From Bacteroidota bacterium (GTDB lineage Bacteria > Bacteroidota > Bacteroidia > NS11-12g > UBA955), in contig JAGXTF010000117.1 in the NCBI GenBank assembly GCA_018333525.1, positions 1 to 52,984 of the forward strand: a DNA stretch of 52,984 nt. Direction: 5' to 3'. The notes beneath the pieces were generated by a model, which did no database searches, was not told the DNA's origin, and saw nothing but the letters and a program-made list of their open reading frames with translations. Shown in pieces: positions 25,452-33,172 of this stretch (positions are counted from its first letter, which is position 1; every line of letters begins with the position of its first letter). Position numbers and translations under genes: made by a program.

Positions 25452-25555
25452 AGACAGAGGACAAGCCTATGAGGGATGAATTCATTTTCTTTGTGAAGAA
25501 AATACCGGAGACTGTGCAACCATTATTCAGGGGGCACGACTAAAAGGTGTTGTGA

Positions 25556-26113
25556 GTGAGCATAATACACGAAATCATAGCGAAATGCAAAGCCGGGGAC
25601 AGGCATGCCCAGCAAGAGCTTTTCAGGCTTACAGGCCCGAAAATGCTGGCTTTTTGCAGGCGCTATTGCAAGTCGGACGACGATGCTCACGATGCACTTC
25701 AGGAAGGATTTATCAAAGTGTTTCATAGTTTGGAAAAATACAGGGGCGACAGCGCTCCCGAGACCTGGATGAGCCGTATTTTCATAAATACCGCAATAGA
25801 CCAATATAAAAAAGGTCAAACTTATGGAAACATGTTTGCCAGCCTTCCGGATGAAGTAGAACGGGAAGACGAAGTATATGATGAAGATTCTTTTCCCTGT
25901 AAGGCTACTGATATCCTTAGAATCATGGACACCATGCCCGAAGGCTACCGCGTAATATTCAACTTATACTGCCTGGAAAGTTACACCCACAGGCAGATTG
26001 CGGAACTTTTGGGCATTTCAGAAGGAACATCAAAATCCCAGTATGCCAGAGCGAAGAAATTTATTTACGACGCACTGGTAGCTAATAAAACCATAGTTGG
26101 AAAACGAATTTGA
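25556..26113 (+). CDS. ECF-type RNA polymerase sigma factor
   Basis: A 185-residue sigma-70 family factor. Region 2 is seen as RRYCKSDDDAHDALQEGFIKVFHSLEKY (~36-63) and the TWMSRIFINTAIDQYKK segment. A short acidic linker (EVEREDEVYDED) leads to region 4 with MPEGYRVIFNLYCLESYTH and the helix-turn-helix QIAELLGISEGTSKSQYARA. The start is GTG 25556. Its 3' end overlaps the next gene by 17 nt, so the two are coupled. The next gene encodes a membrane protein with a short cytoplasmic head that is likely the cognate anti-sigma factor. Confidence 0.93.
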   Translation: MSIIHEIIAKCKAGDRHAQQELFRLTGPKMLAFCRRYCKSDDDAHDALQEGFIKVFHSLEKYRGDSAPETWMSRIFINTAIDQYKKGQTYGNMFASLPDEVEREDEVYDEDSFPCKATDILRIMDTMPEGYRVIFNLYCLESYTHRQIAELLGISEGTSKSQYARAKKFIYDALVANKTIVGKRI

Positions 26114-27572
26114 CCATATAGAAGATTCAATACGCAAAGGCTTTGATGGCTTTGAGTTGCCGGTTTCGGATACCGACTGGTCGCGTATTGCAGCTGCTAT
26201 GGAAAAAGGCGCTTCTGTGAAACCAGTAGTATGGTGGAAGCGGAAAACCAACAAACGTTTGTTGACTGCCGGTATTTTACTGTTATTTATTTCAGGTATC
26301 ATTTATTGGTTAAGCAACGAAAACACCACCAAAAACATCCATACCAATGAGATGCAAAGAGTGGAAAAAGATAAAGGCGTGGAAAGGCAGGCACCTGCAG
26401 CTTCCGGAGAAAATGGCAAGGAAAGGAATGTCACTGAAGGGGAGGTAACCGGTGGCAATCCTTCCGGACCATCCACCGCTATTCAGTCTCCAAATACAGA
26501 TGCCGGCAGTGACCAACCGAATAAAACCGGAAGGCAAAACCGCCAGAATTCGGGTGGGGTAAATCCAATCCATATCGCCAATGACAATCCGGGCGACGGG
26601 AACCCAAATACAAATCCGGCAAATCCCGAAGGAAGCAGCGGATCTCAGGGAACAGTTCAAAATCCGTCTGCAAATACCAACGGCGTTGAAATTGCTCCGG
26701 ATTTTCAATGGCTTCCGGGTAAAGGATTAAAAGTGGAAGAATTGGCATACAACACCTCAGATTTGGTGGTGCTGCCCATGTTGATTGACCCTGTGGTGAA
26801 GAATAAAATCAAACCTCCTACCCCACCGGTGACGCTTCCATTTTATGTGGGCCTGCAAACTACTTATGCGCCGGGTAATTTAAAATTGGGAAATAGCAAT
26901 GTGTTATGGACCAATGTGAAGGATGTAAACGGCAAATTCTCTGCGGTAAACCTCAGGCTAGACGCTGGTGTGATGTTTGGCAATCAGGATTGGAAATTTA
27001 CAGTAGGCGGAGCATTTGAAGGCACTGCTTTACAAGATAAAAAACGAGATTCCATTGTAATCCAGGTAGCAGACCGTTTCTTATCATATCAAGACACGCA
27101 TGGCACCACCTTATATTATCTTGCAATACGCTGGCATGATTCTGTTATCTATATCAATAATGGGCCAAAAATGATATGGGCGGAATTGCCAATTGGATTT
27201 AATCGTTCATTCCAATATCAAAAAGATTTAAAAATAAACTTTGGTTTTACTTTTAATCCCGGCATAATGCTCAATGGCTCTGGAAATATTTCAAGTCCAT
27301 TTGTTTACCGGGCTGGCAGTGAATGGGATTATGTGCATGGAATTAAAAATGCAGATACCACAACTATGGTAATTGCTGCAAACCCTTATTTGAATAAATA
27401 CCGGTTAGGTAGCGGAATCCAACTGGGAATTGAAAAGGAAATGGGCTATTGGAACTGGGCCATTCAGGCGCAAACCAGATATTATTTTACTCCTGTTTGG
27501 AAAACAGGGGTACCTATTAAACAGAATACATTACAGTATGGTATAAATTTACGGTTGGGCTTCAAGATCTAA
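26097..27572 (+). CDS. predicted dual-membrane-spanning anti-sigma factor with C-terminal beta-barrel
   Basis: A 491-residue protein with four parts. Residues 1-50 are a small cytoplasmic head (DSIRKGFDGFELPVSDTDW, like anti-sigma heads of Bacteroidota). Residues ~54-72 form one membrane helix (LLTAGILLLFISGIIYWL). Residues ~75-245 are a disordered Asn/Gly/Pro/Ser-rich linker long enough to cross the periplasm. Residues ~247-491 alternate in the manner of an 8-strand outer-membrane barrel (FYVGLQTTYAPG ... YGINLRLGF, ending KI). This matches the Dma architecture described in Bacteroides thetaiotaomicron, where one protein links the outer membrane to a sigma factor. The start is TTG 26097, inside the sigma gene. 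The function is inferred from architecture and overlap. Confidence 0.78.
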   Translation: MENEFDHIEDSIRKGFDGFELPVSDTDWSRIAAAMEKGASVKPVVWWKRKTNKRLLTAGILLLFISGIIYWLSNENTTKNIHTNEMQRVEKDKGVERQAPAASGENGKERNVTEGEVTGGNPSGPSTAIQSPNTDAGSDQPNKTGRQNRQNSGGVNPIHIANDNPGDGNPNTNPANPEGSSGSQGTVQNPSANTNGVEIAPDFQWLPGKGLKVEELAYNTSDLVVLPMLIDPVVKNKIKPPTPPVTLPFYVGLQTTYAPGNLKLGNSNVLWTNVKDVNGKFSAVNLRLDAGVMFGNQDWKFTVGGAFEGTALQDKKRDSIVIQVADRFLSYQDTHGTTLYYLAIRWHDSVIYINNGPKMIWAELPIGFNRSFQYQKDLKINFGFTFNPGIMLNGSGNISSPFVYRAGSEWDYVHGIKNADTTTMVIAANPYLNKYRLGSGIQLGIEKEMGYWNWAIQAQTRYYFTPVWKTGVPIKQNTLQYGINLRLGFKI

Positions 27573-27576
27573 AAAA

Positions 27577-30096
27577 ATGAGAGGAATTTTACGAAATATT
27601 GCGTCCCTGGGAATCTTTATCTGCGCTGCCTTGCCGCTGAAGTCGCAGATATTGATACCGGAAGAATTGCAGGCTGCAAGCAATCTTACATTATTGCAAT
27701 CCGCGGGAAACAGACTTTGGGTGGTACAACCGGTAGCAGAAAACTCCGGTGTAATTACCTATTCACTTGCTTATAAACTCAGTGGCGTATGGAAAAGATT
27801 ACCTGCTTTTAAACTGGTGGCGCAAATCAATTCAAAAAGCATTGAATTTACAGATATTGAATTGTATAATAATCGCATTTATTTGTCGGGAAATTTTACA
27901 GATCCCAATACCAAAAACAATTGTTTGATGGTATTTGATATTACAACCCAAACCTGGCATTCAGACCGGTTATATTATGCTGGCGGCGGATCAACTGTTA
28001 CTACCATTACATCTCTTACACTCGCAAATGATGCCCTTTTTATGGGAGGAAATTTTATTATGGCGGGCGCAACGAAAGCTAATTTTTTAGCGAAAATTAT
28101 TAAAAATGATCTCTTCCCTGTAAAAATTAAAACTTCTGTTGGAGCAAATGCACCTGTAATTGCAATGGAATCCGATTCCACCCAAAAAGTTATTTATATA
28201 TCCGGAATATTCAGAAATATTCTCGGAATGACATCCACCGGATTTTCCATATACAGACCGCAGGATTCCACATTTTTAACATCGCCAGTAAGCAGTGGTA
28301 CTTTGGTTATTCGCATGCGCAATATCGGATCGAAACTTTTGTTCTATTCCGAGGATTCTTCTAATAAAGAAAAGAAGATATTTTTTATGGAAAATAATTC
28401 TGTGTTAACCAGAGCAGCAGGTATTGATAGTTTATATTCTGTTACGAATATTTTCAGCAATAAAGGCAATTATTATTTCAGCGGAGAAGCACAGGCGGAG
28501 TTGGATGTCAGGGCATACGGCATATTTAGAATTTCCACTATCAACAAAACTGAGAGATTATACAGGCAATTCTATAAAGTTTTTAAAGCCGAAGGTTTTG
28601 AAGGAAATATATATGTATATGGATATTTTGTGCGGTTATTCACAAATGCAAGTATTGCAGAAAATTTTAATCTCGCCAGAATTGAAGACAATTTCAAGCG
28701 CTTTTATGGACGGGTATTTCAGGATAATAGCCCCGATGGAAAATACCAGGCTTCTACGGACAAACTCGCAGGCGGAAATAGCGTTAATGTATATGCCAAT
28801 GGTAGTTTTCAGTTTACCATTCCGGTAGAAAAAAATGGATACTTTTCATTTATTATTCCCACTAAAAATGCTATAGTTTTTAAGGCGATTGTTGAGAAAA
28901 CCCCTGAATTAAAAACCATATCCAACTATATGTTCCGTTCCGATACTTTTAACGAACGTGTTGTTGATTTTCCGGTGCAATATTTAAGCAGCAGCTACAA
29001 CAATGTACGTGTAAGAGTAACAGCGGCCGCAGGCTGGCAAATTCGTAAAGATACCAGCGAATTATATGTGATACGCGTGGTGAATACCGGACTGGTTGCC
29101 GCACAACCGGATATTACCCTTTCGGTAAATGGAAAAATTCAGGCCATACAATCCGATCCTGCGCCATTTCAAATTGACCCCGGACAAAGTACCAAACTTA
29201 CCTGGAAATTAAGCAAAGCCATTTTACCGGGAGAGGAAAGTTCCATTATGGTAAAATTAACTGCCCCTTCTACAGATTTCACCAATAATGACCATCTGGA
29301 TTTCAATGCCGGAATTGCCAATTTTACGGATAATTATCCTGCAGATAATACTGACACCTTACAACAAACTGTAATCTCCTCTTTAGATGCCAATTCTAAA
29401 TTTCAGTATCCGGAAATTCCAAGCGGTGAGAATTTTGCATGGCTGGATCCCAACGCAGGAAAAATCGAATATATCATACGGTTTACCAATATTACTACAG
29501 ATACCATTGGAACTGTAGTAGTTCGGGACACCATTTCCACACCGGATTACGTTACATATATTCAGGAAACCGGTGCCAGTCACCCTTATTCCAGACTGGT
29601 TTACACCACCCCATATTTGCCAAACAAAGTGATTGTGGCATATACATTTTCCAATCTGACATTAACTCCCAATCCTCTGGGCAACTCCGAGTTACTGACC
29701 AGCTCTGGCTATATTGGTTTCCGTCTTGGATTAAAACCCATGCTAGCCTCTGGTACTGATTTAGCCAATCGGGCTTGCATATATCTGGGTACAGAAGAAC
29801 CCATTATGACAAAAACAGTGAATGCCAAAGTTGCTACGCTTGGAATCAAGAATATCACCCATAAGCAAACCAAGAATATATATCCCAATCCGTTTGACAA
29901 TACGCTATACTTTGAAGGCAGTGAAGCAGGTGAAATATTCTCATTGTATGATATGCAGGGAAAGAAATTGGTGGAATCTGTGGTAAGTGACAATAAAATT
30001 GATCTGGAGAATCTGAATCTTACTTCAGGAATTTACATGTGGACCAGCAGAACCAGAAGCGGAGAAGTATTTTCCGGCCTGGTATCAAAAAAATAA
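27577..30096 (+). CDS. secreted T9SS type A cargo with propeller-like repeats
   Basis: An 839-residue exported protein. A signal peptide (~1-24, ALPLKSQ) is followed by beta-rich repeats to ~430 of the form (I/L)(Y/F)(L/M)(S/G)GNF (IYLSGNFTDPNTKNN, LFMGGNFIMAGATKAN, IYISGIFRNILG, YYFSGEAQAELD), as in propeller-type proteins. A CARDB-like segment (~470-575; VVNTGLVAAQPDITLSVNG) and a DUF11/DUF7619-like domain (~590-750; IEYIIRFTNITTDTIGTVVV) come next. The type A sorting domain starts at IYPNPFDNTLYFEG. It begins 5 nt after the beta-barrel anti-sigma gene, so it belongs to the same operon. No enzyme site was seen. Confidence 0.85.
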   Translation: MRGILRNIASLGIFICAALPLKSQILIPEELQAASNLTLLQSAGNRLWVVQPVAENSGVITYSLAYKLSGVWKRLPAFKLVAQINSKSIEFTDIELYNNRIYLSGNFTDPNTKNNCLMVFDITTQTWHSDRLYYAGGGSTVTTITSLTLANDALFMGGNFIMAGATKANFLAKIIKNDLFPVKIKTSVGANAPVIAMESDSTQKVIYISGIFRNILGMTSTGFSIYRPQDSTFLTSPVSSGTLVIRMRNIGSKLLFYSEDSSNKEKKIFFMENNSVLTRAAGIDSLYSVTNIFSNKGNYYFSGEAQAELDVRAYGIFRISTINKTERLYRQFYKVFKAEGFEGNIYVYGYFVRLFTNASIAENFNLARIEDNFKRFYGRVFQDNSPDGKYQASTDKLAGGNSVNVYANGSFQFTIPVEKNGYFSFIIPTKNAIVFKAIVEKTPELKTISNYMFRSDTFNERVVDFPVQYLSSSYNNVRVRVTAAAGWQIRKDTSELYVIRVVNTGLVAAQPDITLSVNGKIQAIQSDPAPFQIDPGQSTKLTWKLSKAILPGEESSIMVKLTAPSTDFTNNDHLDFNAGIANFTDNYPADNTDTLQQTVISSLDANSKFQYPEIPSGENFAWLDPNAGKIEYIIRFTNITTDTIGTVVVRDTISTPDYVTYIQETGASHPYSRLVYTTPYLPNKVIVAYTFSNLTLTPNPLGNSELLTSSGYIGFRLGLKPMLASGTDLANRACIYLGTEEPIMTKTVNAKVATLGIKNITHKQTKNIYPNPFDNTLYFEGSEAGEIFSLYDMQGKKLVESVVSDNKIDLENLNLTSGIYMWTSRTRSGEVFSGLVSKK

Positions 30097-30155
30097 AAAA
30101 CCAATGCAACTAATTGAAGATTTACAAGACAAATACTAAAAGGACTAAAATTACT

Positions 30156-33068
30156 ATGAAAAGAATATACAAATTTTTACTGGCGATTATTATGGTGGCA
30201 GCCACAGCGGCCGGTTCGCAGGTGAAAGCCCAAACCAATTATAACGGGTTTGAGTTTTCCGCCAAATGCCTCACTGTTTCCCTTTGGGCAACAGATAAGC
30301 GCGCGTATGACAGTTGCGCAATGGTGAAATACACCTTAAACAACACTTATGTTATGGGCGCTAAGGCCAGTTACACATTCCCTAGTGCAGGAACCTATAC
30401 GGTTTGCATGAAGATTTTAGACACCTGTAAAAAGTGGGATACTTCGGTTTGCAAAACCATCACTGTAAAGAATTGCTGTAATTGGTCCGGAATCGGATTT
30501 TCCTATTCCAACAAATGCCGGGCATACACTTTTGAAGGAAACAACTCCAACGGTTGCCTGAAATACCAGTTTTACACCATGGTAAACGGTTCTGTAGTTA
30601 CTTTAAAAGCAGGAAGGGTTGCTACCTATACTTACAGTACCAGTGGAAGTTATTATGTAAAAATGGTTGTGCAGGATACCTGTAACAAATGTGATACTGC
30701 AATTTATCAATATGTTAAAGTGGATTGCAATCCATGCAGTTTAAACCCTGAATTTACTTTCAAATACGATTGCTTCAAATACAAATTTGTAGCTACCAAT
30801 ACCATTTCAGGAGCTACTTATTACTGGAGTTTTGGCGATGGTTCAACAGGCAGTGGTGTTGATGCAACCCATACCTACCTGAAAAACGGAGTTTACAAAA
30901 TCTGTCTGGTAATGAAATGGAAAGATCCCCATACCGGTGATGAATGTAAAAAAGAAGTTTGTAAAGAAATAAAAGTTAGTTGTGGAAGCGGATGCGACCT
31001 GAAAGGCGACTTCAAATACACCACCAGCGGTGGATATGCGAAATTTTATGCCTACAGCAATACCGGTTATTATTACGAGTGGAGTTTTGGTGACGGTACT
31101 TACGGAGTAGGTAAAGACCCTTACCACCAGTACAAAAAACCCGGTACTTATACCGTATGTGTGAAGATCTACGACAAATCGAAAAAATGCAGTATTAAAA
31201 TCTGCAAAACTATTGTGATTGAAGAGCCGTGCAGCGTTCGTGCAACCTTCACCTGGCTGGAAGGTTCAGGCGGAAATGTGAAATTTGGTGCACTAAGTTA
31301 TGGCGGTTATAAATATGTTTGGGATTATGGGGATGGTTCTACCGGCAGCGGCCAGTACAGCGACCACACCTATTCCAAACCAGGTACGTACAAAGTTTGC
31401 CTTACCGTATATTCTAAAAGCGGAAAATGTAAAACAACCATTTGCAAATCTGTAAAAGTAGGTGGCGGTACAAGTAGCAGATGCAACTGGGCAGCTAAAG
31501 GTGCAGGTTGGGGTTATTCCATAGTTTGTCCGAAACTCTATTTAGAAGCTAAAAATCTGGATAATGGTTCCAACTGTATCAAATACTATTGGGGAATTAC
31601 ACCTGCAAATACCAACCAAACAACTTATTTCACCGGACGTGTTCAGGGTATCACATTCTCCAGCAATGGAACATATAATGTGTGCCTGAAATTGGTGGAT
31701 TCATGCCACAAATGCGATACCGTAATTTGCAAAACCATTACCATCAACTGCAATGATAAATGCAACCTGCCAGGTGGCTGGACCCAAAGCAACAAATGCA
31801 GAGATTTTACCTTTAGTGGAAATAGTGTAATAGATAAAAACGGAACCACCTATTCCAACCCTTGTCACAAATACTCCTGGAGTTTTGGTGACGGCACTTA
31901 CGGTTCAGGAAAATATGTAACACACAGCTATGCAAAAACCGGTATTTACAAGGTTTGCATGAAAGTGATTGATACTTGCCTGAAATGCGATACCATAATC
32001 TGCAGAGAAATCAAAGTTGAATGTGCAGACAGTAGTAAGTGCGACTGGAGTTGGGCCAAATTATACTCCTCCATTTCCTGTAATGTGGTTGGTCTTGGAG
32101 TGAGTGCCCCGTCCAGTAATGCAGGTTGCTACAAATACACCTATACATTGGGTAACACCAGTGGTTCTACTTCAGACAACAGGTATGCGAAATATACCTT
32201 TACTACTAAAGGAACATACACCATCTGCGTGAAGATTCAGGATACCTGTCACAATTGCGATACGGTACTTTGCACATCAGTAACCATCAGTTGTCTCCCA
32301 ACCAAATGCGATTGGAGCAAAGCAGGATTTGGCAGTTCCAACAAATGCAGGGATTACACATTCGAAGCAAATAACCTTTACAATGGCTGTGTGAAATATT
32401 CATGGAGCATCGCCGGCACACTAGCAGGTACCGGAAGATTGATGACCCACTCGTTCAGCAAAACCGGAACCTATTATGTCTGCCTGAAAATGATAGATAC
32501 CTGCAACAAATGCGATACTGTAATTTGTCAGTACATTAAAGTAGATTGCAACCCTTGCAGTGCAACAGCGAAATTCACAATAGACAGCGTAAGCAAGTCC
32601 GGTGTGGTTTATCTGACCAATGGCAGCACAGGCGGATACTATTATGTTTGGGATTTTGGTGACAGCACTTACAGCTACCTGCAAAACCCGGGAAAACATG
32701 CATATTCTAACAGCAGTACCAGAAAAATTTGCCTCACCGTTTATGATAGTTTGAAAACCTGCAGCACTACTTATTGTGTAACAGTCCAAATTGTGAAGAG
32801 CAGAAATTCTGCATCGGTTGCAAACGTCAATGTAATGCCAAACGTGAGCATATTCCCGAACCCGGCTTCTGATTATTTCAATATAAGTGTAGCCGGAATG
32901 AAAGCGGAATACGAGGTGTTGAATTTACAGGGACAAGTAATCCAAAATGGTACAGTCCAAAACGAAACAACTGTGTCTACCCAAAGTTGGGCTGAAGGTA
33001 TTTACCTGATTAAAACCAGGGCCAACGGTACACAGAACACAACCCGACTGGTTGTGGTAAGACAATAA
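30156..33068 (+). CDS. cysteine-rich PKD-module repeat protein with T9SS type A sorting domain
   Basis: A 970-residue exported protein. A signal peptide (MKRIYKFLLAIIMVAATAAG to VKAQ) is followed by ten tandem modules of about 80-95 residues, then a type A T9SS domain (SIFPNPASDYFNISVAG to the end). Five or more modules show PKD signatures such as YYWSFGDGSTGSG and HTYLKNGVYKICL. Most end in a cysteine pattern DTCxKCDTxIC...I.V.C, and the protein has about 60 cysteines. Such content suggests disulfide-braced modules outside the cell. ATG 30156 is chosen; an upstream in-frame TTG at 30114 has no signal-like sequence. It is the last gene of the sigma-factor operon, 59 nt after the previous stop. 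Likely a surface filament, adhesin or coat protein. Confidence 0.88.
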   Translation: MKRIYKFLLAIIMVAATAAGSQVKAQTNYNGFEFSAKCLTVSLWATDKRAYDSCAMVKYTLNNTYVMGAKASYTFPSAGTYTVCMKILDTCKKWDTSVCKTITVKNCCNWSGIGFSYSNKCRAYTFEGNNSNGCLKYQFYTMVNGSVVTLKAGRVATYTYSTSGSYYVKMVVQDTCNKCDTAIYQYVKVDCNPCSLNPEFTFKYDCFKYKFVATNTISGATYYWSFGDGSTGSGVDATHTYLKNGVYKICLVMKWKDPHTGDECKKEVCKEIKVSCGSGCDLKGDFKYTTSGGYAKFYAYSNTGYYYEWSFGDGTYGVGKDPYHQYKKPGTYTVCVKIYDKSKKCSIKICKTIVIEEPCSVRATFTWLEGSGGNVKFGALSYGGYKYVWDYGDGSTGSGQYSDHTYSKPGTYKVCLTVYSKSGKCKTTICKSVKVGGGTSSRCNWAAKGAGWGYSIVCPKLYLEAKNLDNGSNCIKYYWGITPANTNQTTYFTGRVQGITFSSNGTYNVCLKLVDSCHKCDTVICKTITINCNDKCNLPGGWTQSNKCRDFTFSGNSVIDKNGTTYSNPCHKYSWSFGDGTYGSGKYVTHSYAKTGIYKVCMKVIDTCLKCDTIICREIKVECADSSKCDWSWAKLYSSISCNVVGLGVSAPSSNAGCYKYTYTLGNTSGSTSDNRYAKYTFTTKGTYTICVKIQDTCHNCDTVLCTSVTISCLPTKCDWSKAGFGSSNKCRDYTFEANNLYNGCVKYSWSIAGTLAGTGRLMTHSFSKTGTYYVCLKMIDTCNKCDTVICQYIKVDCNPCSATAKFTIDSVSKSGVVYLTNGSTGGYYYVWDFGDSTYSYLQNPGKHAYSNSSTRKICLTVYDSLKTCSTTYCVTVQIVKSRNSASVANVNVMPNVSIFPNPASDYFNISVAGMKAEYEVLNLQGQVIQNGTVQNETTVSTQSWAEGIYLIKTRANGTQNTTRLVVVRQ

Positions 33069-33105
33069 GGCGGGCACAAGACCACTTTATTAAACTCTCA
33101 TTTAG

Positions 33106-33136
33106 AAGCCGCTTATCGATGATAAGCGGCTTTTTT
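33106..33136 (+). terminator. rho-independent terminator of the sigma-factor operon
   Basis: A 12-bp perfect stem AAGCCGCTTATC/GATAAGCGGCTT with a 3-nt loop and a T run, 40 nt after the PKD-protein stop. Confidence 0.93.
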
Positions 33137-33172
33137 GTGCCTTTTACTTTCATCGGAAGCAGAAAATTGGAG

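Follow-up and report, generated by a model that had tools for sequence, protein, structure and literature searches.

How Bacteroidota report the state of their surface to gene expression is poorly known. We address this question for a locus in a 52,984-nt stretch of Bacteroidota DNA (hereafter the window), in which an ECF sigma factor gene adjoins a gene for a putative dual membrane-spanning anti-sigma factor (Dma) and two genes for cargo of the type IX secretion system (T9SS). The arrangement suggests direct signalling from cell surface to gene expression. Our reading, which we hold to be probable, is a conserved three-gene surface-signalling cassette: a Dma-held sigma factor, a propeller protein docked on the Dma barrel, and a regulon of T9SS adhesins.

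Organization of the locus

All four genes lie on the plus strand, with a hemW-like gene on one side and a double universal-stress gene on the other. The first (25556..26113, GTG start) encodes a 185-aa ECF sigma factor that matches Pfam Sigma70_r2 and r4_2 (E 1e-15) and falls in a tree clade with support 97/91; above cut-off, NCBIfam assigns it to the ECF superfamily only. The positions of the open reading frames bear out the preliminary description of a 17-nt overlap between this gene and that of a 491-aa protein (26097..27572, TTG start), the candidate anti-sigma factor. In locus L060, the homologue of the latter starts at the equivalent residue with a GTG and overlaps its sigma gene by 8 nt. 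The gap from the Dma stop codon to the gene for cargo 1 (839 aa, 27577..30096) is 4 nt rather than the 5 nt first given, while the 59 nt between cargo 1 and the ATG of cargo 2 was correct. Cargo 2 (30156..33068, plus strand) is a PKD-array T9SS protein of 970 aa, whose likely true start is the ATG at 30156. The cassette contains no gene for a TonB-dependent receptor or a FecR-type protein.

The locus had been described as one operon closed by one terminator. An intrinsic terminator, consisting of a hairpin and a U tract, does follow cargo 2 (33104..33137, plus strand; predicted folding energy -19.8 kcal/mol); a generic scan for sigma-70 promoters and terminators, which returned nothing clearly over shuffled sequences, missed this hairpin. 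The four genes are, however, not simply one operon, because an ECF-type promoter signature lies not only 41 nt upstream of the sigma start (TGCAACC-N16-GACTAA, 25515..25543, plus strand) but also directly before cargo 2, 51 nt upstream of its ATG (TGCAACT-N16-GACAAA, 30105..30133, plus strand).

Both cargo proteins end in a Por_Secre_tail domain (Pfam), in agreement with their first assignment to type IX secretion. With a signal peptide (read from the sequence), this C-terminal domain (CTD) and T9SS machinery in the genome, where SprA is present, both classify as T9SS type A cargo. In the model of cargo 1, a beta-propeller (residues ~20-372; propeller matches at Z ~21) leads into Ig-like legs, after which come DUF7619 and the T9SS type A CTD. 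A match of cargo 1 to integrin-alpha (E 6e-17) aligned at a TM-score of only ~0.25 and an rmsd of 31, so we retain a similar layout of propeller and Ig-like legs and reject kinship. Cargo 2 is 43% and 35% identical to its counterparts in loci L060 and L064, respectively.

Architecture of the Dma-like protein

We modelled the Dma-like protein with AlphaFold together with 26 other sequences, namely 25 homologues and one outlier (L107). The small cytoplasmic head, single membrane helix, disordered linker of ~170 residues and C-terminal barrel that had been proposed all appear in the model. The predicted head (residues 8-37; 26118..26207, plus strand) consists of helices at residues 8-15 and 25-37 and contains an invariant tryptophan, W28. 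It is followed by a predicted transmembrane helix (residues 43-76; 26223..26324, plus strand), with a hydropathy peak from residue 55, and by a disordered tether (residues ~76-239, pLDDT<50; 26322..26813, plus strand). The tether measures 114-201 residues in the homologues and could in principle span the periplasm. The C-terminal part (residues ~248-491; 26838..27569, plus strand) is modelled, mostly at pLDDT 75-97, as a small outer-membrane-type barrel of ~10 strand segments, and its best fold matches (Foldseek, VIA-align) are the 8-stranded OmpA (Z 17.6), NspA (Z 17.1) and OmpW (15.7). Pfam and NCBIfam assign no family to the window protein; Pfam OMP_b-brl models match several of its homologues, the window protein excepted. 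Its profile matches sigma-linked barrel proteins of Bacteroidales metagenome-assembled genomes (90%, E 1e-6) and of Cyclobacteriaceae (99%, E 9e-18).

This architecture resembles that of Dma1 and Dma2 of Bacteroides thetaiotaomicron, which, in the part of the report consulted, pair with the sigma factors Das1 and Das2 and likewise combine an adjacent ECF sigma factor with a head, a transmembrane helix, a long disordered tether and a C-terminal beta-barrel (PMC13088901). There, Dma proteins are described as restraining their own sigma factors, the release of which alters the regulon (PMC13088901). By the architecture of its model, on which the likeness rests, the window protein would count as a Dma, which supports the preliminary classification. 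The window cassette differs in adding an invariant T9SS propeller protein as a third gene. Its predicted regulon comprises T9SS surface proteins, as opposed to vesiculation functions or PULs for Dma1 and Dma2, and the portion of that report consulted mentions no T9SS link (PMC13088901). The Dma literature, as far as consulted, names no input signal.

Unlike Dma1 and Dma2 as described in the sections consulted, several relatives of the window protein carry additional copies of the head motif (F..FE.PV...DW....L) ahead of the transmembrane helix. They occur in L061, L066, L071, L073, L074 and L075 and likewise in L077, L078, L082, L084 and L088, and the helix of such multi-head proteins begins at about residue 111-129 or later. 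The repeats are possibly several sigma-binding sites.

Conservation of the gene order

To define how far the order sigma–Dma–cargo is conserved, we sampled 80 loci by sigma-factor similarity alone. The window sigma factor falls in a supported clade (97/91) of 28 rows, with 23 evaluable loci. In all 23, the sigma and Dma genes are followed by a protein of ~820 residues with propeller, DUF7619 and CTD, compared with 2/43 loci outside the clade (Fisher 3e-14); our script counted 22/23, and the last locus was added once the Dma frame of L073 was found intact. The spacing between Dma and cargo 1 genes across the clade is about -4 to +9 nt. For a reciprocal sample, loci were chosen for a cargo propeller or a cargo 1 paralogue, and 21 of 23 have sigma and Dma genes directly upstream of the propeller cargo. 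Cargo-family genes also stand alone, with no sigma-Dma pair upstream (L179:4228-6690 and L181:3991-6453). The three-gene cassette recurs across many uncultured Bacteroidota, and the conserved order on which the preliminary description had staked its reading holds in the clade. The window genome itself encodes four cassettes (on contigs C117, C58, C75 and C76); on C118, a fifth sigma-Dma pair lacks the cargo gene.

The window genome is rich in T9SS cargo genes, with 144 CTD matches in 3.7 Mb or roughly one gene per 20 to 25, so that their adjacency to a sigma-Dma pair might be incidental. The clade and reciprocal neighbourhood counts, along with four cassettes in one genome, rule out chance adjacency and make this explanation vanishingly improbable: the T9SS link of the sigma-Dma pair exceeds coincidence.

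We also compared the divergence of the cassette's parts. Distances for sigma factor, barrel and propeller correlate at 0.82-0.91 (45 rows, a few of them from duplicate records). No two parts correlate more strongly than barrel and propeller, at r 0.91, or 0.69 with sigma distances removed; the partial correlation for the CTD, 0.62, nearly equals the latter value, and barrel and propeller may correlate because both evolve fast.

Promoter signature and predicted regulon

Aligning the upstream regions yielded the signature TGCAACC-N15/16-GWCWA, placed ~10-55 nt before the sigma start. It precedes the sigma gene in 36/51 cassette rows (48 distinct loci) and in 0/49 other sigma loci, a count that is not independent because the motif was derived from cassette loci; the genome-wide counts are independent. 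The 3.7-Mb window genome contains five matches and none to the reversed control. When the pattern is tuned to this sigma factor, as TGCAACY-N16-GACWAA, it occurs six times in the window genome and three times in the related genome G008, and never in the controls. The sigma promoter accounts for one of these matches in each genome, and a site directly before cargo 2 for another. Within the window, these two matches compare with 0.01 expected. The cargo 2 homologue with the counterpart second signature in G008 (locus L060) belongs to a second genus. Three cassettes of the window genome (C58, C75 and C76) have no strict match.

Beyond the cassettes, 13 of 28 promoter-placed matches in 13 genomes precede genes for T9SS CTD proteins, against a baseline of ~5% (1,498 CTD matches in ~39 Mb; P ~ 2e-10). 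As some of these genomes are related, the targets are not all independent, and the count becomes ~11/25 once orthologues are removed. Specificity in 12 other genomes is only about threefold, at 68 matches versus 22 for the reversed control. We infer that the window sigma factor recognises TGCAACC-N15/16-GWCWA. Since the signature stands before the sigma gene, before cargo 2 and before T9SS genes elsewhere, the sigma factor most likely activates both its own cassette and the genes of exported adhesins.

The two cargo proteins therefore differ in status. The preliminary description had coupled the sigma-Dma pair to two exported surface proteins alike. This stands for cargo 1, the invariant third member of the cassette, and does not for cargo 2, an accessory gene that looks like a regulon member because it carries its own copy of the sigma factor's promoter. 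Genes of the cargo 2 type vary and bring their own promoters, which sets regulon members apart from cassette members.

Signature copies also occur at lipoprotein genes. One lies 62 nt ahead of a lipoprotein/DUF4214-like operon that is DUF1501-like in appearance (L200:2392-5131, on contig C29 of the window genome, G000), and this type of operon recurs with the signature at similar first genes in G070 and G072. At L202:4455-5147 (contig C89 of the window genome) there are two divergent copies, one of them 59 nt before the gene for a 230-residue lipoprotein. In G008, similar-looking lipoproteins of 229 and 234 residues each have a copy.

A model for surface signalling and its alternatives

In the cassette that we propose, the cytoplasmic head of the Dma-like protein would keep the ECF sigma factor inactive. 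The protein would cross the inner membrane once, continue as a disordered periplasmic tether and end in a small barrel presumably located in the outer membrane. The propeller, exported by the T9SS, would most likely dock on the outer face of this barrel and set its state. A surface change, which may be a ligand bound to the propeller or a lack of the propeller when the T9SS is blocked, would reach the head through the tether, by pulling or by relay, and thereby free the sigma factor. The freed sigma factor would then read TGCAACC-N15/16-GWCWA and express its own cassette plus a small regulon in which T9SS adhesins abound and to which cargo 2 belongs. The propeller itself may either activate or restrain the switch.

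We regard the propeller as the candidate surface partner of the barrel because one fixed propeller architecture is invariant in the clade and because Cyclobacteriaceae fill the same slot with a different propeller: their sigma-Dma pair is followed by a lipoprotein with an LVIVD propeller. Cargo 1 might instead be merely an output, the sigma-Dma pair sensing the outer membrane alone and the propeller protein being a co-transcribed effector like cargo 2. Co-transcription with its regulators would fit an output, other T9SS cargo proteins belong to the regulon through their own promoters, and no cargo gene accompanies many of the related sigma-Dma pairs (L110-L137). Outputs normally vary, however, whereas the architecture of cargo 1 is fixed across the clade, directly after Dma; moreover, 21/23 members of the cargo family occur in a sigma-Dma setting, and Cyclobacteriaceae substitute another propeller. 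We consider the output explanation unlikely, if still a serious competitor.

The pairing of barrel and T9SS cargo genes also recalls PorP-PG1035 and SprF-SprB, in which the T9SS cargo is bound by its partner barrel in the outer membrane and sprF adjoins sprB (PMC9143113). The Dma-like barrel could accordingly be a dedicated export or anchoring partner of cargo 1, with the head reporting occupancy. The PorP-PG1035 and SprF-SprB complexes have been demonstrated (PMC9143113), and barrel and propeller evolve together in our data. PorP and SprF, however, are 14-stranded FadL-type barrels with type B CTD cargo and no anti-sigma function (PMC9143113), in contrast to the small OmpA-like model and type A CTD found here, and SprA and the general T9SS already serve ~140 cargo proteins. 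Export partnership is thus improbable, and we rejected membership of the window barrel (~10 strand segments) in the PorP/SprF group on grounds of fold and CTD type.

Returning to the signalling cassette, a more specific version is a self-monitoring switch: the exported propeller would have to reach the anti-sigma barrel and occupy its outer face, and a single protein would convey the propeller's arrival or ligand state directly to RNA polymerase, adjusting the output of T9SS adhesins. We advance this version tentatively, at rather less than an even chance. If true, it would be a secretion-coupled feedback loop that requires neither TonB nor a two-component system and exists in several parallel copies per genome.

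In FecI-FecR-type signalling, a one-pass anti-sigma factor transmits an outer-membrane event to an ECF sigma factor, which becomes active. The window cassette differs from this type in having no gene for a TonB-dependent receptor and in that the anti-sigma factor itself carries the predicted barrel. The PorA-PorXY-SigP system of Porphyromonas gingivalis shares the idea of a surface T9SS CTD protein feeding an ECF sigma factor over T9SS-related genes; as described in the part of the source consulted, PorA is a small FimH-like protein of Porphyromonas only that works via a two-component system, and SigP is given no Dma-like partner there (PMC7712824). Through the cassette, a sigma factor would be tied to type IX secretion with no need of PorXY.

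We found no description of the cassette in the open-access literature, in keeping with the earlier surmise that the coupling may be undescribed; Dma and type IX secretion co-occur in a TamL paper that mentions Dma once. What is new here is the promoter signature. Since each Dma has a candidate partner of its own, exposed at the surface, and a promoter that can be read, input and output alike are testable, and the signature offers regulon prediction in uncultured Bacteroidota.

Related loci with other third genes

Other third genes accompany related sigma-Dma pairs. In loci of the Cyclobacteriaceae type (L080, L087, L091, L094, L095, L100, L101, L102 and L105), the gene after Dma encodes a lipoprotein of ~435 residues, with LVIVD propeller repeats in 7/8 examined, and a ~200-residue protein is usually next. 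The Bacteroidales loci L125, L131, L134, L135, L136 and L139 combine an ECF sigma factor and a Dma-like protein with a different conserved third gene, for a 144-residue universal-stress-like protein. The barrel itself is replaced in the outlier L107:2995-4230, where the anti-sigma-like protein encoded after the ECF sigma gene has a head and a transmembrane helix and ends in CHU_C (a type B T9SS signal; E 2e-9). Finally, L132:10449-11696 and L137 encode ECF-linked proteins with one transmembrane helix, a long tether and a non-barrel-looking C-terminal domain (NLVNNPSFE...) that is possibly another type of sensor.
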